DNA from: an uncultured Pelagibacteraceae bacterium
GTDB taxonomy: Bacteria > Pseudomonadota > Alphaproteobacteria > Pelagibacterales > Pelagibacteraceae
Assembly (NCBI GenBank): GCA_902560815.1
Contig: CACENP010000004.1
Span: 1-64,000 of the forward strand
DNA: 64,000 bases
Direction of reading: 5' to 3'
Numbering within the stretch: the stretch's first letter is position 1; each line of letters starts with the position of its first letter. Position numbers and translations under genes: made by a program. This document shows, piece after piece, positions 2,256 to 14,797 of the stretch. Below the pieces are notes generated by a model. That model saw only the letters and a program-made list of their open reading frames with translations. It did not search any database and was not told where the DNA came from.

Positions 2256-3323
2256 ATGATTCATCCTTTGATTTTTTGTCCTTCAATTGAAGGTGGAGGC
2301 GTTGAGAAAAATCTTTTTCTAATTTCAAATTTTTTATCCCAAAAAGTTGATAAAGTTTATTTGCTGACTGCAAACAAAGATATGAAGAGTAAATTTAATA
2401 AGAAAATAATTTTTATTTCACCAAAATCGAAATATTGGTCAAACAAAAATAGAATTTTAAAAAGTCTTATTTGTTTTTTTTTATTTTTAAAATTAAAAAA
2501 AAAATTTTTAATAATATCTTTTCAATCAAATATTTTAGCAATAATTTTATCAAAAATTTTTAATTATAAAGTTATTATAAGGTCGAATACTTCTCCTGAA
2601 AAATATATTAAAAATAAAATTAAAAAAATTATATTTAAATTTTTTTTTAAAATGACAAACGAAATAGTAGTCAATAGCTATTCCTTTAAGAATAGTTTAA
2701 ATAAAATATTAGGTTTAAAATCAGTCGTGATTTATAATCCAACAAAAAAAATTAAATTAAATAAGATTAATAAAATTAAAAATAATATAAACATTATTAA
2801 CGTAGGAAGACTAACAGACCAAAAAAATCAATTTTTATTATTAAATGCAGTTAAAGAATTAAATAAAAAAATTCAGTGGAAATTGTCAATTATTGGAAAA
2901 GGAAATAATTATAAAAAAATTTTAGATTTTATTAATAAAAATAATTTAAAAAAAAAAATTAAACTTTGTGGATATAGAAAAGACTCAATCAAAGAAATTT
3001 ATAAATCAGATTTATTTGTCTTAACTTCAAATTATGAAGGTTTGCCCAATGTTTTGATAGAAGCACAACAAGTCGGCACTCCAATTATATCTACAAATTG
3101 CAAAACTGGTCCCAAAGAAATTTTGCTTAATGGCAAACTTGGCGAACTCATTCCAGTAGGTAATAAATCAATGCTTATTGAAAAGATTGAAGATTTTTAT
3201 TTTAACAGAAAAAAATACATAAAGAAATCAAACTTAGCAAAAAAGTATTTGTATCGCTTTGATTATAATAAAAATTGTAACTTGTACTACAACTTATTTA
3301 AAAAATATTTGAATGAAAAATAA
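2256..3323 (+). CDS. Family 4 glycosyltransferase
   Basis: A 355-residue GT-B glycosyltransferase. The start region has the typical acceptor-side glycine loop (EGGGVEKN, about residue 12), the donor domain opens with NVGRLTDQKNQ, and the catalytic signature is EGLPNVLIE (residues 261-269), followed by KTGPKEIL. Residues 70-130 are strongly Lys/Ile/Phe rich, which suggests membrane association. The stop overlaps the start of the following GT2 gene by 11 bp, so the two are probably translated together. It resembles the first gene of the window in its C-terminal half; substrate is unknown. Confidence 0.85.
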   Translation: MIHPLIFCPSIEGGGVEKNLFLISNFLSQKVDKVYLLTANKDMKSKFNKKIIFISPKSKYWSNKNRILKSLICFFLFLKLKKKFLIISFQSNILAIILSKIFNYKVIIRSNTSPEKYIKNKIKKIIFKFFFKMTNEIVVNSYSFKNSLNKILGLKSVVIYNPTKKIKLNKINKIKNNINIINVGRLTDQKNQFLLLNAVKELNKKIQWKLSIIGKGNNYKKILDFINKNNLKKKIKLCGYRKDSIKEIYKSDLFVLTSNYEGLPNVLIEAQQVGTPIISTNCKTGPKEILLNGKLGELIPVGNKSMLIEKIEDFYFNRKKYIKKSNLAKKYLYRFDYNKNCNLYYNLFKKYLNEK

Positions 3324-4077
3324 TAAAAATTTTAATTTAAAAATATCAGTAATTACTGTTGTTAAAAATAACGAAAATGACATAGAAAATAATATTAAAA
3401 GTTTATTGGACCAGAGTTATGACAATTATGAACATATAATTATCGATGGTGGTTCAACAGATAGGACTGTTGATATAATCAAAAAATATGAAGATAAAAT
3501 TCATTACTGGATTAGTGAAAATGATAAAGGATTATACGATGCAATGAACAAAGGAATTAACGTTGCAACTGGTGATATAATAGGAATATTAAATTCTGAT
3601 GATATATTTTATAAAGATGCACTTTTGTATGTAAAAAATTATTTTCAAGAATATGAAAATATTGATTTTTTATTTGGAACTGTAATTAAGTATAAAAAAC
3701 TATACGGCTACAATCCAAAAAAGATTTTTTGGTCATTCGGATTTTATACTTCACATTCAGTTGGTTTTTTTATAAAAAGTGAGTCTCAAAAAAAACTGGG
3801 ATATTACAACACCAAATATAAGTATTCTGCAGATTATGACTTATTTTATAGAATGATTGTTAAACAAAAAATGACAGGAATGGCCACAAAAGAAAACGAA
3901 GTTTTTGGAAAATTTAATTCAGGGGGAATATCCTCAAAAATTAAATTTATAGATTATCTAAACGAAAATACTAAAATTAGAATCGATAATGGTCAAAATA
4001 TCTTATTTGTATACTTAATTTTTTTAATAAGGTTTTTTAAAAATATTAATAAAATTTTCAAAGATTTGAATAAATAG
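3313..4077 (+). CDS. Family 2 (GT-A) glycosyltransferase
   Basis: An inverting GT-A glycosyltransferase of 254 residues. The N-terminal strand is ISVITVVKN, the nucleotide-binding turn DGGSTD starts at residue 45, and the metal-binding acidic pair is in NSDD (D96-D97). The segment between them (ISENDKGLYDAMNKG) is characteristic of the WcaA-like GT2 subgroup used in capsule and O-chain synthesis. A C-terminal hydrophobic helix followed by Lys-rich residues could anchor it to the membrane. It overlaps the upstream GT4 gene by 11 bp and is six bases from the downstream epimerase, so a three-gene operon is likely. The sugar transferred is unknown. Confidence 0.87.
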   Translation: MKNNKNFNLKISVITVVKNNENDIENNIKSLLDQSYDNYEHIIIDGGSTDRTVDIIKKYEDKIHYWISENDKGLYDAMNKGINVATGDIIGILNSDDIFYKDALLYVKNYFQEYENIDFLFGTVIKYKKLYGYNPKKIFWSFGFYTSHSVGFFIKSESQKKLGYYNTKYKYSADYDLFYRMIVKQKMTGMATKENEVFGKFNSGGISSKIKFIDYLNENTKIRIDNGQNILFVYLIFLIRFFKNINKIFKDLNK

Positions 4078-4083
4078 AAATTT

Positions 4084-5052
4084 ATGAAAAAAAAAATTTT
4101 GATTACTGGTGTGGCAGGTTTTATAGGTTTTGCATTAGCAGAAAAGTTAATAAAAAAAAATTTTATAGTCTATGGTATAGACAATCTCGATAATTATTAT
4201 TCTATAAAATTAAAAAAAAAAAGAATAGAACTTTTAAAAAGAAATAAAAATTTTCATTTTAAAAAAATAAATTTTTCAAAAAAAAAAAATATAGAAATAT
4301 TCTTTAAAGGAAAAAAATTTGAGACTGTTGTTCATTTAGGAGCACAAGCTGGCGTAAGATACTCTTTAACGAACCCAGACAAATATATAGATACAAATTT
4401 TATAGGATTTATAAATATTATAGAAAACTCAATAAAAAATAAAATAAAAAAATTTATATTTGCATCATCCAGTTCAGTTTATGGAGAACAAAAAAATTTT
4501 CCTATTAAAGAGAATATTTATTTGGACCCAAAAAATATATATGCGAGGACAAAAAAATTAAATGAAGAAATTGCATACGATATACATAGATTAAATAATA
4601 TTGATATTACTGGATTAAGACTATTTACGGTTTATGGAGAGTGGGGAAGACCAGATATGTTTATAATGAAATTTTTAAAATGTTTATATAATAAAGAAAA
4701 ATTAAAACTTTTTAACAAAGGTAATCATTATAGAGATTTCACTTATATAGAGGATGTTGTAGAAATTATGAGCAAACTAATTATTAAGAAACAAGATAAA
4801 AAGTTTAAGATATTTAATATTTGTTCAAATAAACCAATACATTTAAAAAAATTAATTAATATTATGGTGAAACAAACAAAAAAAATTCCAAATATTCTAC
4901 TTACAAATTTTCAAAAAGCTGATGTACTTAAAACACATGGCGATAATAGAAAAATTAAAAAATATTTAAAATATTACAAATTTACAAAAATTGAAGAAGG
5001 TATTAAAAAAACAATTGCATGGTACAAAGATAATAAAATATGGAATTATTAA
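4084..5052 (+). CDS. NAD-dependent sugar-nucleotide epimerase (UDP-glucuronate 4-epimerase-like SDR)
   Basis: An extended short-chain dehydrogenase/reductase of 322 residues that most resembles UDP-glucuronate 4-epimerases. It has the Rossmann motif TGVAGFIG (residues 8-15), a SSSSVYG active-site strand near residue 128, and the catalytic Y153-x3-K157 pair in YARTK. The conserved LRLFTVYGEWGRPDM block follows. The N-terminal GIDNLDNYYS segment is typical of the GalE/UGlcA-epimerase group. It probably supplies a nucleotide sugar, for instance UDP-galacturonate, to the neighbouring transferases; the exact substrate is inferred only from similarity. Its stop codon directly abuts the stop of the convergent membrane-protein gene. 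Confidence 0.85.
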   Translation: MKKKILITGVAGFIGFALAEKLIKKNFIVYGIDNLDNYYSIKLKKKRIELLKRNKNFHFKKINFSKKKNIEIFFKGKKFETVVHLGAQAGVRYSLTNPDKYIDTNFIGFINIIENSIKNKIKKFIFASSSSVYGEQKNFPIKENIYLDPKNIYARTKKLNEEIAYDIHRLNNIDITGLRLFTVYGEWGRPDMFIMKFLKCLYNKEKLKLFNKGNHYRDFTYIEDVVEIMSKLIIKKQDKKFKIFNICSNKPIHLKKLINIMVKQTKKIPNILLTNFQKADVLKTHGDNRKIKKYLKYYKFTKIEEGIKKTIAWYKDNKIWNY

Positions 5053-6903
5053 TTAGCAAATTAATTTATCTAACTTTAATTCATAAATCTCATAAGAATT
5101 ATTCTCAAAAATTTTACAATATTTAAAGCTTTTATTTTCATCCTTTTTTTTGAATTCATTTGAATTTAAAATTAAAAAATTAGGTAAGTCTTTCGAATTT
5201 TCATCATTAAATGAAAAATTTTTAAACTTTTGTTGCAATCTATTTAACTCAAAAATTGGAATTATTGATTGTTGGACAACAAATGGCGAGGTTTTATTAA
5301 TTTTATTAATTTCAATATTAGTGAAATCTTGAGAGTTTTTATATGTATAAAAAGAGTTTGCCATATATCTTTGGAAAAAAAATTTTTGTATATCTTTATT
5401 TAAATACCTCCAACCTCTTATTTTATTTTCTATAAAATGTTTAAATTCTATTTCATTAAAATTTAAAATTTGAAGTGAAAAGATTAAGTCATCCTCAATC
5501 ATGTAATTTTTTTTAGATGTAAAATTTCCATTTAATACTTTAATTCTTTTATAATCATTTAATATTAGCCAGACCATAATTTTAGGATCAAATGTAAGTA
5601 TGTTTGAATTTTTTTGAATTCTGTTGTTATTTTGAATTGATTTTATTAACTCAATTCTATCAAACCTAGAATTATCAATTTTTTTAAAATTTTTACTATT
5701 ATCGTAAATATTTAATATAATAAATATTAAGCAAAAAAAGGTCAGCACTTTAAAATTTGCAAATTTATTTAATTGTTTTTTAAGCAAAACAAATATTGAA
5801 AAAATAAAAAATAATATATTTTGAATAACAATTATATTATTAAAATGGTAATAAATGTTTATTTTTGTACTAATACAAATAAAAAATAATGGAGCAATTA
5901 AAGAAGATAAAATTAAATAATAAAAAACGGTTATTAATTTATTTGCTAAATCTTTCTTTTTCAAAAAATAAAATAAAATAGTATTTGCAATTAAAATTAC
6001 TATGAATTTTATTTCAAAAAATTTTTCCAAATAGAATTTTATTAATTTTTTTTTATTGTTCAAATCTAGATCGATAGCACCCATTCGCTCCATAAAATCT
6101 GCTTCATGAAAATTTAAAATTAATAAAAAAGGCATTAGCAAAATGATCCCACTAGATAGTTGAAGGTACTTAATTTTAGAAAAGTTTTTTATAACATAAT
6201 TTTTGTTTTGAATTATTACAATTATACCAAGGATCAGAATAATAAAAAAATAATAATAGAAAGCAGTTAATAATAATATACTTAAAAAACTAAAATAAAT
6301 TGCTATTTTTTTATTAAAAAGTATTTTTAAATCATAATTTACAATTAGATAAATTAATGAAAAATAATAAATATTAACAACTACAGGCCGAGGAACTCTT
6401 GAATTATATAAATTATTTTTTAATAAGCTTACATAAGGGAATGAATCTAAGTTCAATAGACTTATAAGCAAAGGAATAAATAAAATTATTAGTGATAAAA
6501 TTATTGATATTTGACTTTTAAAAACTATCCGAAATAAAAAATAAAATATAGTTAAAAATAAAAATAGTGAAATAAATTCAATTATAAATATTGTTAGAAA
6601 GAAATTATTAGTTATTTTTAATAATAAAGAATGAAATAAAATTCCTCCTAATGGAATTGGAATAAGATTTAAATCATCTACACCTAGTTCAAAAGATAAA
6701 TTAAATGTCAGATCTGATAAATATTTTATTAATGGAAAATAATAATATCCATCGCTTTCGCTTTCATTTACAGTTTTTAAAATTAAATCTTCATTAAAAA
6801 ATTCAAAAAAAGGGTAAATCCATTTAATTAAGAATAGACATATCGATATAAACAAAATAATAAGTAATGATAAATTTGTATCTTTTGAAATGAACGTTTT
6901 CAT
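5053..6903 (-). CDS. Large polytopic membrane protein, possible GT-C-type transferase
   Basis: I do not recognise a named family. The 616-residue protein starts with a transmembrane helix (residues 12-32). A short acidic loop containing ESESDGYYYFP (about residue 47) follows, then roughly ten further hydrophobic helices to about residue 400, and a soluble C-terminal part of about 200 residues. An acidic pair in the first outer loop and many helices are the general layout of GT-C glycosyltransferases, which use lipid-linked sugars at the periplasmic side, but no diagnostic motif is clear. The start codon overlaps head to head with the start of the divergent GT2 gene, and the stop abuts the convergent epimerase stop with no spacer. 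A polysaccharide-related role is inferred from position only. Confidence 0.75.
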   Translation of the reverse strand: MKTFISKDTNLSLLIILFISICLFLIKWIYPFFEFFNEDLILKTVNESESDGYYYFPLIKYLSDLTFNLSFELGVDDLNLIPIPLGGILFHSLLLKITNNFFLTIFIIEFISLFLFLTIFYFLFRIVFKSQISIILSLIILFIPLLISLLNLDSFPYVSLLKNNLYNSRVPRPVVVNIYYFSLIYLIVNYDLKILFNKKIAIYFSFLSILLLTAFYYYFFIILILGIIVIIQNKNYVIKNFSKIKYLQLSSGIILLMPFLLILNFHEADFMERMGAIDLDLNNKKKLIKFYLEKFFEIKFIVILIANTILFYFLKKKDLANKLITVFYYLILSSLIAPLFFICISTKINIYYHFNNIIVIQNILFFIFSIFVLLKKQLNKFANFKVLTFFCLIFIILNIYDNSKNFKKIDNSRFDRIELIKSIQNNNRIQKNSNILTFDPKIMVWLILNDYKRIKVLNGNFTSKKNYMIEDDLIFSLQILNFNEIEFKHFIENKIRGWRYLNKDIQKFFFQRYMANSFYTYKNSQDFTNIEINKINKTSPFVVQQSIIPIFELNRLQQKFKNFSFNDENSKDLPNFLILNSNEFKKKDENKSFKYCKIFENNSYEIYELKLDKLIC

Positions 6904-7792: not shown

Positions 7793-9046
7793 TTAAATTG
7801 AAAATTTACCAACGCTATAGAAATAATACATTGACCAATAACAAATGAAATAAATATTTAAAGAAATTAAATTTTTATTTAATGTTTCTTTAATTTTTTC
7901 TCTATTAAAAAAAAGTAAAAATATAAAAATCATTAAAGGTTCAAAATATTTTTGAAAAATAAAAAACCCAGAAGAAAATGAAAATAACAAAGGAATAATT
8001 AGTATATAATAATTAATTGTATTATTTTTATAAAAGAAAAGTAAAAAAAGACCAATCAAACTAAAAGCAAATAATATAGTGTTATTACCCAAAATATAGA
8101 ATGATAATTTGTGTATAACTCCCCCACCGATACTACCCTGATAGTAAAAATTTGAACAAAAATAAACAAGTATTAGAAATAAAATAATTATAGTAAATAA
8201 ACTTTTTTTATTTGATAAAATTTTTATCGTTTCTTCAATATTTTTTTTAAAATTTACTAAATAAAATGGAATTAGATAAATACTTATTATAGACAAAACA
8301 ATAATAACAGATGATTTTAGATCTGTTATATTCATCATTTGGTAACCAGTTATTACTTTTGGATTATTAATTAAAAATATGAAACCTGGTATACTTAAAA
8401 ATAACAAAGTTAAAAAAATAAAAATTAAATATTTTAATCCTCTAGACCCATAAATCTCTAGCAAAAAAAAGGGAAAAAAAATTATATAGTATTGTCTTGT
8501 GTAGCTAGCAAAAGTTAAAAAAGTAAGTGACAATAATATATTAATTTTATCACTATCATTTATTTTAAATTTCAACTTATTTAAAAAAAAAATCGCTGCA
8601 ACGAAAAAAAATAGTGCCGTTATATGATTATTTCCCCATATTGCTGAAGATTGAAAATTTGGTAGTAAATAAATTATCAAAGACAGATTTAACAATTTAC
8701 CAAAAGGTATGTCTTTATATAATATTTTACAGTTTAAATAGAAAATTAATGGCAAAAATAATGAAAAAATAAAAAAAGATAATAAATATGTTTCTTTAGT
8801 GCTAACTATAAAATCTAATCTAGAAAATATTAAGTGATGAAGAGGAAAGTTCAATAATTTAAAATCTTTGCCAAGCTCAATATTAAATAAATTGTTTAAG
8901 TCCGAATTTAATATTTTTATATACTTCCAATGAGTTTCAAAATCTGAAGTGGAACCACCTCCAGAAATATCATGATTAAAAACAAATGATGTAAATAGAG
9001 TTAATATTGAAAAAAATGCAAATATAGTGATAGGAACATGTTTCAT
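7793..9046 (-). CDS. Polytopic membrane protein of unknown function
   Basis: I cannot assign a family. The 417-residue product has an N-terminal membrane helix (residues 5-24) followed by an outward loop with DFETHWKY (about residue 36) and about nine more hydrophobic helices, among them a segment with ASYTRQYYIIFFPFF near residue 180. The layout, with an acidic first loop and aromatic residues, is like GT-C transferases or mannosyltransferase-like proteins; the evidence is general. It is four bases downstream of the GMC oxidoreductase gene on the same strand, so the two and the small peptide gene before them look like one transcript. Its end abuts the convergent glycosyltransferase. Confidence 0.72.
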   Translation of the reverse strand: MKHVPITIFAFFSILTLFTSFVFNHDISGGGSTSDFETHWKYIKILNSDLNNLFNIELGKDFKLLNFPLHHLIFSRLDFIVSTKETYLLSFFIFSLFLPLIFYLNCKILYKDIPFGKLLNLSLIIYLLPNFQSSAIWGNNHITALFFFVAAIFFLNKLKFKINDSDKINILLSLTFLTFASYTRQYYIIFFPFFLLEIYGSRGLKYLIFIFLTLLFLSIPGFIFLINNPKVITGYQMMNITDLKSSVIIVLSIISIYLIPFYLVNFKKNIEETIKILSNKKSLFTIIILFLILVYFCSNFYYQGSIGGGVIHKLSFYILGNNTILFAFSLIGLFLLFFYKNNTINYYILIIPLLFSFSSGFFIFQKYFEPLMIFIFLLFFNREKIKETLNKNLISLNIYFICYWSMYYFYSVGKFSI

Positions 9047-9050
9047 TATT

Positions 9051-10445
9051 TTAAGTAATATTTTTTAAATGATCCGCCAATCTAGATGATAGTTGAACAA
9101 TTGTAAATGTTGGGTGTGCATGGCCTCCTGTTCTAAAAACAGAACTACCTGAAATATATAAATTTTTAATCTCATGGACTTTAAGATTCTTATCAACCAC
9201 TGAATCTGAACTATTAATTCCAACGCGAGTACCCCCTAATTGATGATTACCTAAAACGATATTTTTAGTTTTATAATTTTCAATTGATAGTCTGCCTAAG
9301 TCATAATTAATAAAAAATTTAGATAATTCTATTAAAAATTTTTCTAAATATGAAAAATTTTCTCTAGGAAAATTCCAATTTAACTTAACTTTTGGTGTTC
9401 CGTATGGATCATTTAAATTATCTAACTCAACTCTATTTTTTATATCAGGTTTTTGTTCATGAATTACATATATTTCAATTTCACTTAAATCTTTAAGTTC
9501 TCCTTTCAAAATTAAATTTTGGAAGTATTTTGGAGCAACACAAATTAGTTGTCTTTTATAACTATTTGATAATTCTTTAAATTTTAATTGTAATTTTAAA
9601 TCTTCAATTCCTTCAAATTCTAAAAAATTTTTACTAGGTGATAAATGTAAAGACCTTTCACATTCCAAAATTAAATTAAGTTCTGGTACTTTTTCTTTTA
9701 AAAGAAATTTTAACTTATTAACATTAACAATACCTGATCCAACATGATAATATGGATGATCCATAAAGTATTTTCCAATTGGCATTGTATTATTAAATAA
9801 ATCTTTATTTTTTTTTTTTGACCATTCAAGTAATCTTGAGTTTTCGATACCACCACAGGCAAGAACAAATTTTTTTGATTTTAAATTATACTCTTTAGAA
9901 TTAAAAACAGTAGCGGAGTCAATTTTTCCTTGCTTACCATTGAAATATAAAAAAGATGTATCTAATATTAAATCATGATTTTTTGAGTCTCTAAAAAAAT
10001 TTAAATAATTTAAAAAATTAACATCCGACCATTGTAAATTTAAAATATCAATATTTTTATCAATTTCTGCAGAATAAAATTTTTTTTTTAAATTTAATAT
10101 TTTTTTTGTAGGTTTAATATATCTATCTAGATCAGTTTTATTTATTGGCCAATTAGAGAAGTCAGTATCTTCCATCAAATTACAATTTCCGCCCCATAAA
10201 GAAGATGTACCTCCAAACTGTCTAGATCTAAGATATTCTAATCTTGGATATTTTTCATTTAATACTTTGCCTGATAGAAAATTCTCTATATCTGGGGATG
10301 GATCCAGATTTCCAGCTTCAACAATTAATGTTTTTAAATTATTATTCTTAAGATTTAAAACAATAGATATTCCAGCAGGTCCAGAACCAATAATTATAAT
10401 ATCATATTCAATATTTAGGATATTTTGGATATTATCAATAATCAT
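9051..10445 (-). CDS. GMC-family FAD-dependent oxidoreductase
   Basis: The 464-residue protein belongs to the glucose-methanol-choline flavoprotein family, which oxidises alcohols or sugar hydroxyls. The FAD-binding Rossmann motif GSGPAG is at residues 20-25, preceded by IIII. The FGGTSSLWGG block near residue 76 is the usual second FAD contact. The C-terminal catalytic region has HQLGGTRVG and GGHAHPTFTIVQ, which carries the active-site histidine. No signal peptide is present. The upstream 50-residue twin-arginine ORF overlaps its start by 11 bp, which suggests a two-subunit enzyme exported by piggy-back, as known for small-subunit/large-subunit fructose dehydrogenase. In this island it may oxidise a sugar residue of the surface glycan or its precursor; that is inference. 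Confidence 0.88.
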   Translation of the reverse strand: MIIDNIQNILNIEYDIIIIGSGPAGISIVLNLKNNNLKTLIVEAGNLDPSPDIENFLSGKVLNEKYPRLEYLRSRQFGGTSSLWGGNCNLMEDTDFSNWPINKTDLDRYIKPTKKILNLKKKFYSAEIDKNIDILNLQWSDVNFLNYLNFFRDSKNHDLILDTSFLYFNGKQGKIDSATVFNSKEYNLKSKKFVLACGGIENSRLLEWSKKKNKDLFNNTMPIGKYFMDHPYYHVGSGIVNVNKLKFLLKEKVPELNLILECERSLHLSPSKNFLEFEGIEDLKLQLKFKELSNSYKRQLICVAPKYFQNLILKGELKDLSEIEIYVIHEQKPDIKNRVELDNLNDPYGTPKVKLNWNFPRENFSYLEKFLIELSKFFINYDLGRLSIENYKTKNIVLGNHQLGGTRVGINSSDSVVDKNLKVHEIKNLYISGSSVFRTGGHAHPTFTIVQLSSRLADHLKNIT

Positions 10446-10587
10446 CAGAGATCAATATCCATTTTTTATTGAATTTCTTTTTTGAAATAATGTATTTATT
10501 AAAATTAAGTATTTTAGATATATTTATTTGCCCTTTTAAAAAAAGGATACTGGATAAAAAAGTTAATATAAAATTTCTTCTAATCAT
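10435..10587 (-). CDS. Small twin-arginine signal peptide-like protein, likely GMC partner
   Basis: A 50-codon ORF, short enough to be missed by length filters, starts with ATG at 10587 and ends with TGA at 10435, overlapping the GMC gene start by 11 bp. The N-terminus is MIRRNFILTFLSSILFLKG: a twin arginine followed by N-F-I-L and a hydrophobic stretch, close to the RRxF pattern of Tat signals. The rest is basic and ends in WILISDDY. It resembles, in layout only, the small Tat-bearing subunits that accompany GMC dehydrogenases, though those are usually longer. The overlap favours translational coupling. It could instead be a random ORF or a degraded remnant. Confidence 0.55.
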   Translation of the reverse strand: MIRRNFILTFLSSILFLKGQINISKILNFNKYIISKKKFNKKWILISDDY

Positions 10588-10639: not shown

Positions 10640-11359
10640 ATGAAAAAAATAGCAATAATTATACCCGCATACAATGAACATGAAAATATTTTAATTTTGT
10701 TAAATAAATTGAATAAATTAAAATATATCAAGACAATAATAATAATTGATGACTCTAGCAATGATCTAACAAAGCATAAGATTAAAAAAAGCAAAATTAA
10801 AGTAAAATATTATAAAAGAGTCAAAAAACTAGGCAGAGGGTCTGCAGTTTTATTTGGGATAAAAAAAATAATTAAAAAATTATCAGAAAATGATCTGATA
10901 GTAGAAATGGATGCTGACTTATCTCATAACCCAAATGAACTTAGCAGAAATATTAAATTTTTTGTAAAAAATAAAAGTGATCTTTTAATTTCAAGTAGAT
11001 ATCTTAAAGGTAGCAGGATTATAAACTGGGGTTTAAATAGAAAAATATTATCTAGGGTTTCAAATATTTTGGCAAAATTTTTTTTAAATGTTCCTGTTAA
11101 TGATTATACAAATGGATTTAGAATTTATAATAAAAAATCAGCTAAATTAATCTTAAAAAAATGTGGAAGAATAGGAGAAGGCTTTATAATCTTATCTGAA
11201 ATATTAATATGTATTCATAATTCAGGATTAAAAATAAACGAAATAAAAACAATTTTTATAAACAGAGTAAGAGGTGAGAGTAGTGTTAACTTTAAATTAA
11301 TTTTTAATTCTTTTGTAGGACTTATAAAACTTTATTTAATTAAAAAAAATTATTTATAA
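10640..11359 (+). CDS. Polyprenyl-phosphate mannosyltransferase-like GT2
   Basis: A 239-residue GT2 enzyme of the dolichol/polyprenol-phosphate mannose synthase type. It has AIIIPAYNE at residue 5, IIDDSSND near residue 38, VEMDADLSHNP near residue 92 (the DXD region), and the family-typical SRYLKGSR and NDYTNGFRIY segments. A single catalytic domain without C-terminal membrane helices matches the short DPM1-like form. The expected product is a polyprenyl-phosphate-linked sugar, the donor used by GT-C membrane transferases, which would fit with the unassigned polytopic proteins in the island. Its last 10 bp overlap the end of the convergent SDR gene. Confidence 0.85.
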   Translation: MKKIAIIIPAYNEHENILILLNKLNKLKYIKTIIIIDDSSNDLTKHKIKKSKIKVKYYKRVKKLGRGSAVLFGIKKIIKKLSENDLIVEMDADLSHNPNELSRNIKFFVKNKSDLLISSRYLKGSRIINWGLNRKILSRVSNILAKFFLNVPVNDYTNGFRIYNKKSAKLILKKCGRIGEGFIILSEILICIHNSGLKINEIKTIFINRVRGESSVNFKLIFNSFVGLIKLYLIKKNYL

Positions 11360-12162
11360 TATATATCTTCAAGAGAATTATATTTATTTTTAAATCCTAA
11401 TTTTTTTAGTTTTGCTATGTTAGCAATTAAATAAGTAACTTTTTTATTTTTATTAAAAATTAATTTTTTATTTTTATTAATTTTTGAAGCTATACTTTCA
11501 ATTAATATTTTTTTTCCTGAAGCTAAATTTATAGTTCCTTGATATTTTTTTTTGGATAAAAAAACAATTGCACGACATAAATCTTTTATTGAAATAAAAT
11601 CTCTATAATGATTCAAATTATCCAGTATTAATTTTTTTTTACTTGAAGAAATTTTCTTTCTTAAAGACGGAACTAGAAAAGGCACTTTTTGTTTTTTATC
11701 TGTAAAACTAAAAATTCTTCCTATACAATAATTAAATTCAATTACTTTAGATTTTTTATTAATATATTTTTCTGCAATTAGTTTTGTTTTTCCATATTTA
11801 GATATTGGGTTTAACTTTCCATTTTCTTTAATTTTTTTTCTTTTATTAAATTTATATACATGAGATGTAGATGGAAAGAAAAACCATTTCAAATTCATAT
11901 TTTGATACTTTATAAGCGCATCCAAAATATATTTAGTTCCTAAAAAGTTTACTTTTTTTGCGTAATTATAATTTTTATTTACTTCAGTTACAGGAACTAT
12001 AGCTGCCAAATGTATAAATATGTCAAATTTATTTTTTTTTATCCAGTTATAGACTTGTTTTTTATTAGTTATATCACCTTTAAAATTAACAAAATTTATA
12101 TTTTTAAATTTTGTCAATCTATTTCCCAAAACTCCATTTGAACCGGTTATTCCACAAAGCAT
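11350..12162 (-). CDS. NAD-dependent epimerase/dehydratase (SDR)
   Basis: A 270-residue extended SDR. The N-terminal cofactor motif is TGSNGVLG (about residues 6-13), a PSTSHVYK active-site strand is near residue 96, and the catalytic tyrosine and lysine are in KYGKTK near residue 121. The sequence is shorter than UDP-glucose epimerases and closer to RmlD/WcaG-like reductases and deoxysugar epimerases. Given gmd and a ColD-like dehydratase in the same island, a final epimerase/reductase step on a GDP-deoxysugar is possible, but this is inference. The start is 98 bp from the divergent glycosyltransferase, one of the few regions here long enough for promoters. Confidence 0.82.
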   Translation of the reverse strand: MLCGITGSNGVLGNRLTKFKNINFVNFKGDITNKKQVYNWIKKNKFDIFIHLAAIVPVTEVNKNYNYAKKVNFLGTKYILDALIKYQNMNLKWFFFPSTSHVYKFNKRKKIKENGKLNPISKYGKTKLIAEKYINKKSKVIEFNYCIGRIFSFTDKKQKVPFLVPSLRKKISSSKKKLILDNLNHYRDFISIKDLCRAIVFLSKKKYQGTINLASGKKILIESIASKINKNKKLIFNKNKKVTYLIANIAKLKKLGFKNKYNSLEDIYYK

Positions 12163-12203
12163 TTTGTGATATATAAACTAAAATATAATTATATAAAGAA
12201 CAT

Positions 12204-12231
12204 TTGAAATTAATCTAAAATAATTTATAGG
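12204..12231 (+). promoter_or_regulatory. Candidate sigma-70 promoter for the 12261 glycosyltransferase operon
   Basis: In the divergent gap a TTGAAA box (12204-12209) is followed after 16 bp by TATAGG (12226-12231). This would start transcription near 12238, about 23 bp before the ATG at 12261. The -10 match is moderate and AT-rich DNA gives frequent chance matches. Confidence 0.3.
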
Positions 12232-12260
12232 AAACTTTAATTTACTAAAAAATATAAAGA

Positions 12261-13031
12261 ATGCCTTTAAAAAAAGATCTTACTGTTATAATGCCATATT
12301 ATAAAAAAATTAAATATTTTAAAAAAGCATATTCATCAGTAGTAAATCAAACTTATAAAAATTTTAATGTAATTCTTATATATGATGATGAGTTTAAAGA
12401 AGATTTAAAAAAAATTAAAAGAATTATTAAAACAAAAAATTTTAAATATATAGTTAATAAAGAAAATATTGGTGCAGGACCAAGTAGAAACAAGGCAATT
12501 GATATTGCTAAAACAAAATATATAGCTTTTTTAGATTGTGATGATTATTGGGAAAAAAATAAAGTTAAATATCAATTAACTTTAATGAAAAAATATAAAT
12601 TAAAATTTTCACATACTTCCTACACTATTTTAAATAGCGATAGTAATAAAAAAAAAAAAATATATGCAAAAAAAAATACAACATATAATGAACTTTTAAA
12701 ATCTTGTGATATTGGATTATCCACAGTTATATTGGAAAGAAGTATTTTAAAAAATTTTAAATTTGGAAATACAAAAACAAAAGAAGATTACATATTATGG
12801 TTAAAGTTAGCTAAAAATAATATTAATATATTTGGAATAAAAAAACTTTTATCAAATTGGAGAAAAGATAAAAAATCGCTTTCCAGCAATGTTTTTCAAA
12901 AATTAAAAGATGCATTTATAGTATATTTTAGGTATGAAAAATTTAATTTTATTTTATCGTGCTTGTTTACAATAAGATTATCATTAAACTATTTAATTAA
13001 ACATTATTTACAAATTAAAAATAGAGTTTAG
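12261..13031 (+). CDS. Family 2 glycosyltransferase
   Basis: A GT-A glycosyltransferase of 256 residues. It has LTVIMPYYKK at residue 7, the KENIGAGPSRNKAI segment near residue 73, and LDCDDYWEKNKV near residue 93, the last holding the metal-binding aspartates and the DYW signature common in O-antigen GT2 enzymes. A run of 13 A residues (12648-12660) lies inside the gene and encodes a lysine stretch. The C-terminus is hydrophobic and basic. Five bases separate it from the following GT2 gene, and gmd and the MraY-like transferase continue in the same direction, so this gene heads a likely four-gene operon. Confidence 0.85.
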   Translation: MPLKKDLTVIMPYYKKIKYFKKAYSSVVNQTYKNFNVILIYDDEFKEDLKKIKRIIKTKNFKYIVNKENIGAGPSRNKAIDIAKTKYIAFLDCDDYWEKNKVKYQLTLMKKYKLKFSHTSYTILNSDSNKKKKIYAKKNTTYNELLKSCDIGLSTVILERSILKNFKFGNTKTKEDYILWLKLAKNNINIFGIKKLLSNWRKDKKSLSSNVFQKLKDAFIVYFRYEKFNFILSCLFTIRLSLNYLIKHYLQIKNRV

Positions 13032-13036
13032 ACAAT

Positions 13037-13726
13037 ATGAGTCTAGAAAAATTAACACTAATAATTCCGGCAAAAAACGAAGAAGAGTCGCTGCCTTTAG
13101 TATTAGATGAATTAAAAAAGTATAACGTAAAGAAAATTGTGATTATTCCACCTAATGATCACAAAACATATAATGCAATAGAAAAATATGACTGCAAGAT
13201 TTTATTTCAAAAGAACAATGGGTTTGGAGCAGCAATCATAGAGGGATTTAATAATTCAGAAACTTATTATTCATGTATTTTTAATGCCGACGGTTCGTTT
13301 GACCCTGCAAGTCTTCAAGAAATGTATGATTTATTAGAAGACAAAAATAATCAATTAGATTTTATTTTTAATTCAAGATATACTGGAAATGGTGGTAGTG
13401 ACGACGATACTATAATTACTAAAATTGGAAATTTTTTCTTCACAGGACTATGCAATGTATTATTTAGAACAAAAGCTAGCGATGTTTTATATACATATGT
13501 GATGGGTAAAACTAAATATTTTTTAGATAACAACTTAAAATGTTATGATTTTACTTTATGTGTTGAGCTAGTTATAAAGGCTAAAAAAAATAGGCAAAAT
13601 TACTTTTTTTTAAACTCCTATGAAAGATCTAGGTTAAAGGGTATAAAAAAGGTAAATGAATTTAAAGATGGACTTCTCATTTTAATTTATATGATAAAAC
13701 AATTTTTTGTATTAAATATTAAATAA
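13037..13726 (+). CDS. Family 2 glycosyltransferase (DPM1-like)
   Basis: A 229-residue single-domain GT2 protein with LTLIIPAKNEEESLP at residue 6, KNNGFGAAIIEGF near residue 63, and FNADGSFDP near residue 81 in place of the more usual DADxxxxP. An SRYTGNGGSDDDT segment near residue 115 matches the loop seen in polyprenyl-phosphate sugar synthases. It sits directly against the gmd start (zero spacing), so coordinate expression with GDP-sugar supply is likely. Whether the acceptor is a polyprenyl phosphate or a growing glycan is not visible. Confidence 0.82.
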   Translation: MSLEKLTLIIPAKNEEESLPLVLDELKKYNVKKIVIIPPNDHKTYNAIEKYDCKILFQKNNGFGAAIIEGFNNSETYYSCIFNADGSFDPASLQEMYDLLEDKNNQLDFIFNSRYTGNGGSDDDTIITKIGNFFFTGLCNVLFRTKASDVLYTYVMGKTKYFLDNNLKCYDFTLCVELVIKAKKNRQNYFFLNSYERSRLKGIKKVNEFKDGLLILIYMIKQFFVLNIK

Positions 13727-14797
13727 ATGAAAAAAAAAGTGGCATTAATTACTGGAATAACTGGTCAAGATGGCTCTTATTTGGCCGAACTACTTCTAAA
13801 AAAAAATTATACTGTTCATGGAACTCTTAGGAAATCATCATCTTTTAATACTGGAAGAATTGATCATTTATATGTCGATCCACATCATAAAACAAATTTA
13901 TTTTTACATTATGCAGATTTAACTGACAGTAATTCTATATATAATATTATTAACAAAATTAAACCTGATGAGGTTTATAATTTAGCAGCCCAGAGCCATG
14001 TAGGTGTATCATTTGTTAATCCAGAGTATACCGCCGAAGTATCAGGAGTTGGAACTTTAAGAATTCTAGAGGCAATAAGATTTTTAAATTTAAAGAAAAT
14101 TAAATTTTATCAAGCAAGTACATCTGAGTTATACGGAAAAGTTATTGGAAATAAAAAAATATTTGACGAGAATTCTAAATTTTATCCAAGATCTCCATAT
14201 GGAGTTGCAAAACTCTATTCCTATTGGATTACTAGTGTTTATCGAGAATCGTATGGAATATTTGCATGCAATGGAATTTTATTTAATCACGAAAGTCCAA
14301 GAAGAGGCGAAACATTTGTAACTAGAAAAATTACAAGGTTTCTGGCTAAAAAATATCTTGGCTCTAAAGAAATACTTTATTTAGGAAATTTAAATGCAAA
14401 AAGAGATTGGGGACATGCTAAAGATTTTGTAGAAATGCAATGGAGAATTTTACAAGCAAGTAAACCTGATGACTATGTAATTGCCACAGGCAAAACTTAC
14501 ACGGTTAAACAATTTGTAGAAATTGCATGTAAGTTTATAAATATAAAAATATATTGGTCTGGAAAAGGAATTAATGAGGTAGGATATTTTTATAATAAAA
14601 ATAAAAAAAAACAAATACTTGTAAAAGTTGATCAAAAATATTTTAGACCAAATGAGGTTGACTATCTAAGAGGTGATTCTAAAAAGGCGTATAAAAGATT
14701 TAATTTTAAACCTAAATATAATTTTAGATCGTTGGTAAAAGAAATGATGATGAATGATATTTTGCTTGAAAAAAAAAATAGTGGTTTAAAAGTATAA
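13727..14797 (+). CDS. gmd: GDP-mannose 4,6-dehydratase
   Basis: Converts GDP-D-mannose to GDP-4-keto-6-deoxy-D-mannose, the branch point to GDP-fucose, GDP-rhamnose, perosamine and colitose. The 356-residue length is normal. Seen in sequence: cofactor motif [11 protein letters not shown] from residue 9, [14 protein letters not shown], the [12 protein letters not shown] block, the catalytic TSELYG strand near residue 130 with Y-x3-K in SPYGVAKLY, and the strongly conserved [17 protein letters not shown] segment. These together are diagnostic. The downstream DegT-family protein with His in place of the PLP lysine could act on this product. The gene follows a GT2 without spacing and precedes the MraY-like gene by 2 bp. 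Confidence 0.96.

Follow-up and report, generated by a model that had tools for sequence, protein, structure and literature searches.

The window, a stretch of 64,000 nucleotides from the genome of an uncultured Pelagibacteraceae bacterium (a 1.10 Mb draft in 36 contigs, 83.75% complete), harbours on its minus strand a small ORF (10435-10587), the 50-residue translation of which is MIRRNFILTFLSSILFLKGQINISKILNFNKYIISKKKFNKKWILISDDY, followed by the stop codon. Close to the N-terminus of the deduced product lies a twin-arginine motif, RRNF (residues 3-6, 10570-10581), which runs into a hydrophobic stretch of approximately residues 6-17 (10537-10572; best 13-residue Kyte-Doolittle mean 2.06) that is followed by no A-x-A site. 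A lysine-rich linker then leads to the C-terminal KKWILISDDY, within which KWILISDDY (W43, L45, D49; 10438-10464) constitutes the proposed docking tail. The stop codon of this ORF, termed here the mini carrier after its putative role, overlaps the start of a GMC oxidoreductase gene, and the 11 bp common to both ORFs (10435-10445) are ATGATTATTGA. A small ORF with RRNF and a hydrophobic stretch overlapping the GMC start by 11 bp had already been described in the sequence-only reading of this DNA, and both the translation and the coordinates confirm it; the conserved W-x-L-x3-D tail was absent from that description. No fitting family model for the window carrier was found in Pfam or NCBIfam, and its relatives described below gave only weak, scattered matches to curated families. 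A match of the carrier to DUF3169 (E 0.0093, 16 bits versus a cut-off of 31.6) was disregarded.

The partner gene (9051-10445, minus strand) codes for a GMC oxidoreductase of 464 amino acids, in which 19 residues precede the FAD-binding GSGPAG and no signal of its own is present. The protein matches Pfam GMC_oxred_C (PF05199; E 2.7e-16, 60.9 bits, cut-off 24.6) and, at a score below the cut-off of 23, GMC_oxred_N (PF00732; E 0.0023, 18.2 bits). The short N-terminus is common to all 16 Pelagibacteraceae GMC proteins, in each of which the FAD motif is preceded by 17-23 residues that contain no RR. Concerning positions 401 and 444, which we take to be the catalytic active-site positions, His401 is invariant (68/68 GMC rows), while position 444 is occupied by Asn in 61 rows, by His in 6 (H444 of the window, codon 9114-9116, and L031-L035) and by Thr in 1. 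The invariant His401 is followed by Gln in 6 of the 68 rows. No 3Fe-4S-type cysteine cluster could be detected in the window enzyme, whose four cysteines (88, 197, 262 and 302) are scattered. A search of window positions 1-25,000 for ORFs of at least 80 aa with a C-x2-C-H motif gave no cytochrome c candidate; in the 80 named loci introduced below, multi-motif C-x2-C-H ORFs were likewise absent (0/80), with a single-motif ORF present in 4.

The pair sits among five family 2 glycosyltransferase genes plus epimerase and dehydratase genes. One of the glycosyltransferase genes lies with an NAD-dependent epimerase gene on the plus strand (3313-5052), and the region 10640-14797 contains three more, along with a GDP-mannose 4,6-dehydratase-like gene and, on the minus strand, an epimerase gene. 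Downstream of the pair, its own strand encodes two large hydrophobic proteins that have no Pfam match (5053-6903 and 7793-9046, minus). The polysaccharide island suggested by the sequence-only reading can be clearly recognised in the window, and such a setting is frequent at Pelagibacteraceae loci, the 97 neighbouring proteins of which include 12 Glycos_transf_2, 7 Epimerase, 6 DegT, 5 Acyl_transf_3 and 3 Wzy_C, as counted without a background control in a scan of no more than 52 of the 80 loci that took two ORFs per side and excluded ORFs of more than 700 aa. Outside the family, however, where the same scan yielded 84 proteins, no neighbour family was found more than three times, which argues against a fixed link between the module and polysaccharide islands.

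The conservation of the arrangement was followed in two partly overlapping sets of loci (L014 of the first, for example, is L071 of the second). Among 297 Pelagibacteraceae genomes, 111 contained a GMC match at E<=0.001, in most cases a short FAD-motif match, and near-full-length matches at E<1e-50 were confined to 16 loci, including that of the window. Fourteen of the 15 nearest family relatives, the GMC proteins of which are 31-44% identical, possess a small ORF with the same layout at the GMC start, the exception being L014. In the scan of named genomes, in which the best 80 of 324 GMC relatives were used, a carrier was located directly upstream of the GMC gene at 72 of the 80 loci (70 recognised by script, L072 and L087 by eye), so the conserved small ORF that the sequence-only reading had proposed to look for upstream of orthologous GMC genes does exist. 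Four further loci are truncated, either because the contig ends there (L037, L049 and L057) or because Ns intervene (L058), with the tail visible in L037, L049 and L058, and four (L066, L068, L071 and L080) have no neighbouring carrier. According to the record titles, the carrier hosts comprise Pelagibacteraceae, Mesorhizobium and other Hyphomicrobiales, Rhodobacter-type bacteria, Sneathiella, Burkholderiales and Piscirickettsiaceae, together with two Nitrospira MAGs and one Myxococcales MAG, although MAG assignment can be wrong. A scan of viral contigs gave no confirmed relative of the window GMC. In the plasmid database PLSDB, one carrier used as a query found no match, and the GMC belonging to it found 19 records.

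The inclusion filter for an alignment of 71 carriers (70 loci and the window) required a twin-basic pair (RR, KR or RK) and a W that is followed by a hydrophobic residue at +2 and by an acidic one between +4 and +7. The twin-basic pair, itself demanded by the filter, is RR in 64 carriers and KR in 7, its second Arg being invariant (71/71), and the tail W, present in 71/71, is likewise a consequence of the filter. Two features go beyond it: Leu at W+2 in 69 of the 71 carriers and D/E at the fixed position W+6 in all of them (D in 68). The proteins have a median length of 51 aa (range 39-81), with 27-43 residues from the twin-basic pair to the W and, in 69/71, 7-9 residues from the W to the C-terminus, both counts including the W. 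Another alignment (A7) with separate carrier rows was left unused, since its sole invariant column was GMC W146, meaning that the carriers had been aligned onto the GMC.

The full pattern, defined as an ORF ending at the GMC start and containing [RK]R and a W-x-L-x3-[D/E] tail, occurred in 0 of 20,000 dinucleotide shuffles of the DNA upstream of the window GMC, and when the upstream DNA of 70 relatives was shuffled 100 times each, none of the 7,000 versions contained it. The null is a post hoc one, the tail pattern having been learnt from relatives. Applied to the 501 ORFs of 200 aa or more in the 80 named loci that fell outside the GMC regex, this criterion flagged 21, all of which proved by position and sequence to be the GMC gene of their own locus; the true non-GMC ORFs accordingly gave 0/480. 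The dN/dS comparison that the sequence-only reading had called for yielded dN < dS in 17 of 17 close carrier pairs, not all of them independent because pairs share members, with ratios of 0.09-0.52 in 16 and saturated dS in one; the last four codons were excluded from the calculation. Frameshifts in close relatives, which the same reading had regarded as a possible objection, are assessable only in other close pairs, since no relative of the window pair above 47% GMC identity was found; in those pairs the frames stay open. As judged from these comparisons, the 50-aa peptide is the product of a real, conserved mini-protein gene.

Overlapping stop and start codons are typical of translational coupling. 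The carrier and GMC ORFs overlap by 4 bp in 27 of the 71 cases, by 1 bp in 21, by 11 bp in 7 and by 0 in 7, with other values in 9, and the overlap of the carrier stop with the GMC start makes joint translation of the two probable. The frequency of this overlap might also be taken to mean that the small ORF is merely a leader peptide (uORF) that regulates GMC translation, the residues of which would be irrelevant except near the stop. Such a peptide would not be expected to display a motif fixed across 71 carriers, nor amino-acid purifying selection that persists when the last four codons are omitted, and it is contradicted by carriers lying downstream of the GMC (L202, L203) or on the opposite strand (L066); this explanation is considered very unlikely. 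Given its position directly before the GMC, which is where one would look for a signal, the ORF could also be the N-terminus of a single Tat-signal GMC polypeptide split by a sequencing error or a programmed frameshift. However, a separate stop is found in 71 carriers, and the overlaps of 14, 11, 4, 1, 0, -1, -3, -5, -9, -11 and -19 bp place carrier and GMC in different relative frames, which, together with the downstream position of the carrier in two genomes, leaves a split gene with hardly any probability.

The gene order was examined along a quick tree of 126 GMC proteins, which is unrooted and has SH-aLRT support only; L037, L049, L057 and L058 were left out, and some labels were set by hand (L122, L124 and L145 as large carrier, see below; L133 as none, the match being due to chance). 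All the mini-carrier GMC proteins fall into one group of 95 (SH-aLRT 99), of which 87 have a carrier next upstream and 8 do not. At L111 (genome G344) and L115 (G375) the carrier follows the GMC, being encoded downstream of it in the same orientation, at 1089-1346 of L202 and within an ORF at 1489-1989 of L203, the likely start of the latter being further in. The genomes of L068, L080 and L158 each encode, about 4 kb away, a second GMC of the same group that does bear a carrier (L207, L206 and L201, respectively). Paired GMC genes some 4 kb apart with a carrier on one only were noted in L201 and L204-L207 (G886, G1036 and G1037), and in these three genomes one carrier possibly serves two GMC proteins. 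At L066, an orphan carrier (2135-2305, minus; SKRRSFFK...YWILSSDDL) with no GMC behind it in the locus lies about 1.7 kb from the carrier-less GMC, on the opposite strand. No carrier was found at L113 in the sequence examined, the downstream side of which ends at the contig end, nor, by profile search, in genome G202, to which the GMC without a neighbouring carrier (L014, the same locus as L071) belongs. Since order and strand vary while the pair persists, the carrier appears to function in trans, and neither a leader peptide nor a split gene would be expected to behave in this way.

The genome of the window (G000) encodes TatC and two TatA/B proteins in adjacent genes, and RRNF of the window carrier conforms to an RR-x-phi motif ahead of a hydrophobic stretch. 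The general Tat-signal models recognised few of the carriers, PF10518 matching 4 of 71 (best E 0.11) and TIGR01409 3 of 71 (best E 0.069), all of them weakly and the window carrier not at all. When a carrier profile (A9) was run against 17 genomes, the best match was the GMC-adjacent carrier in 15 of 16 family genomes (G202 being the exception), and the sole match in G886 (E 2.1) was the carrier of L174; the result has an element of circularity, since the profile includes most of these carriers or copies of them. In addition, there were 15 lesser matches at E<0.05, of which 14 are confined to the N-terminal portion of the profile and one, G154:C6, covers positions 12-50. Proteins of the Oxidored_molyb, DUF1501, Amino_oxidase and SelR types are Tat substrates, and ten of the lesser matches, when scanned, were the N-termini of 4 SelR, 2 Amino_oxidase, 2 DUF1501 and 2 Oxidored_molyb proteins. 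Pelagibacteraceae SelR (MsrB-like) proteins with a carrier-like RR-type N-terminal signal were observed at L189, L191, L194 and L198.

An A-x-A signal peptidase site is present in none of the 33 Pelagibacteraceae carriers, including that of the window, as opposed to 22 of the 38 others, so that cleavage may differ between the groups, an argument weakened by the rarity of alanine in AT-rich genomes. The Pelagibacteraceae carriers are probably uncleaved, their hydrophobic stretch most likely staying in the membrane. The same absence of A-x-A, the lysine-rich linker after the hydrophobic stretch and the weak scores of the Tat models would also suit a small protein that is no Tat substrate and acts as an anchor or assembly partner, holding the GMC to the inner membrane on its cytoplasmic side. 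An anchor of this kind, however, has no need of the invariant second Arg and the near-invariant first one; moreover, the N-terminal part of the carrier profile also recognises RR-bearing proteins other than carriers in these genomes, and the A-x-A sites of many carriers outside Pelagibacteraceae speak against it. Retention on the cytoplasmic side is hence regarded as unlikely.

The other side of the tree is made up of 31 GMC proteins, five of which were initially labelled as having a Tat protein of 109-136 aa encoded upstream and 26 as lacking one. A profile of those five (A6) revealed more of them beside the GMC genes of L139, L125, L170, L136, L168, L127 and L129 (domain E<=1.4e-4), with weaker matches at L167, L132, L121 and L119 (E 0.0065-0.16). 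A large Tat small subunit adjoins 16 of the 31 GMC genes on this side, if the four weak matches are counted (L119, L121, L122, L124-L127, L129, L130, L132, L136, L139, L145, L167, L168 and L170), and no carrier of either size was found at the remaining 15 in the sequence examined, mostly flanks of 1.5 kb. The 16 large carriers (alignment A10) measure 109-148 aa and are encoded either upstream or downstream of the GMC. Like the mini carriers, they combine an RR signal with a C-terminal W beside a GMC gene, but they differ in having a middle domain and a sequence that continues past the acidic residue, often as LCAL. Their tails have the W in 15 of 16 cases, a hydrophobic residue at +2 in 16 of 16 (Leu in 11) and Glu at +6 in 10 of 16. 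An HMM of the mini-carrier tail matched 15 of the 16 large carriers, 14 of them on the tail (L139 was matched off the tail, L129 not at all); 8 of the scores exceeded the 99th percentile of 305 matches from 800 shuffled proteins, and none exceeded the shuffle maximum. In an hhalign comparison of the whole mini and large profiles only the RR region was aligned. The Pfam scan of 15 of the 16 large carriers (L127 excluded) gave no match, and PDB searches with the large carriers retrieved no small subunit, which is uninformative, as a three-member profile of PF13618 likewise retrieved nothing relevant. On these grounds, the mini and large carrier tails are likely of common descent, and the mini form, as far as an unrooted tree allows, is likely to have arisen when larger Tat small subunits of related GMC proteins lost their middle domain.

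One of the closest known counterparts in kind is the gamma subunit of BcGDH, a Tat hitchhiker of 168 aa, the hydrophobic C-terminal tail of which, including Trp159, covers the interface (PMC6719666). Like the putative carrier of the window, as far as can be read from the DNA, it has a Tat signal and is encoded beside a GMC; this subunit is needed for folding and secretion of the GMC, and its Trp-containing tail recalls those of the mini carriers. Unlike the 50-aa window carrier, the 168-aa gamma subunit has a folded five-helix domain and an inter-subunit disulfide, and its partner contains a 3Fe-4S cluster and works with a tri-haem beta subunit, whereas the window GMC has neither a cysteine cluster nor a cytochrome c neighbour. 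A Tat signal is also borne by the small subunit of a Collimonas GMC, export genes having surfaced, per the authors, in random mutagenesis (PMC12542777), and Tat-signal gluconate_2-dh3 subunits are noted in PMC10924467. The corresponding family, Gluconate_2-dh3 (PF13618), had no match in the 71 mini carriers, in 15 of the 16 large carriers (L127 excluded) or in genome G000. Co-export in a small helper-enzyme pair is known from MelC1 and MelC2. MelC1, the helper of the Streptomyces tyrosinase MelC2, resembles the mini carrier in that its small gene and that of the enzyme form a two-gene operon (PMC2758597), but it is larger and has a different partner, and its weak match to the large-carrier profile (E 0.5) covers the signal region only. 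A short Tat-signal protein beside a redox enzyme is also described by the model TIGR02811, the formate dehydrogenase region TAT target, which has a different partner enzyme and was matched by only 1 of the 71 mini carriers (E 0.16). No description of a GMC/Tat mini carrier of 40-60 aa was encountered among the matches listed in the open-licence literature (titles and abstract starts). To our knowledge, the mini carrier would rank among the smallest dedicated Tat carriers.

Two AlphaFold runs were performed on stop-read-through fusions of natural one-frame loci (L048 and L074), giving whole-model mean pLDDT values of 86.3 and 90.4. The carrier tail had a pLDDT of about 52-63 in these models and was predicted as a short strand pair with no resolved docking. 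Only nine rows covered the carrier. A Foldseek search with the L048 model placed the large subunit of Gluconobacter fructose dehydrogenase first, the other matches including pyranose oxidases, the C-glucosyl oxidoreductase DaCGO1 and BcGDH alpha, all at a TM of about 0.5-0.6; these fold matches suggest a sugar hydroxyl as the likely substrate.

The reading preferred here, with a probability of about 0.8, is that the small ORF encodes a minimal Tat hitchhiker, composed of a signal and a docking tail, which would export a signal-less GMC sugar oxidoreductase. The sequence-only reading had put forward a minimal Tat subunit of this kind, and the core of its proposal, still one of function read from sequence, finds strong support in the conservation, the purifying selection, the pairing despite rearrangement, the Tat genes and the lack of a signal in the GMC itself. 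Carrier and GMC would be translated together, and the GMC would fold and bind FAD in the cytoplasm, where the C-terminal W-x-L-x3-D tail of the carrier may dock onto the folded enzyme. RRNF and the hydrophobic stretch would then bring the pair to TatABC, and retention of that stretch in the membrane would tether the GMC at the periplasmic face. There it may oxidise a sugar hydroxyl, probably, for the cluster of the window only, that of a surface-glycan intermediate, which is the weakest step of the scheme.

If true, this would show that the minimal needs of a hitchhiker subunit are a signal and a docking tail, and a class of GMC sugar oxidoreductases that look cytoplasmic, because they have no signal of their own, would have to be assigned to the periplasm, both in SAR11 and in other bacteria. 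More tentatively, and with slightly less than an even chance, the carriers may represent a widespread class of minimal Tat adaptors outside the family libraries searched, in which all but the Tat signal and some 10 residues of docking tail has been lost; they would act in trans on folded flavoenzymes, one adaptor could serve two GMC proteins, the anchor would remain uncleaved in SAR11, and the binding site of the tail would be a portable means of sending folded proteins through Tat. Carrier genes of this type are easily missed, as two annotated copies, one mini and one large, are both named 'hypothetical protein', and a late start drops the twin arginine from the mini copy. The latter is the carrier of Azospirillum thermophilum (L143, 5781-5969; NZ_CP029356.1), the called start of which is an internal TTG located after the RR, so the twin arginine is missing from the record.
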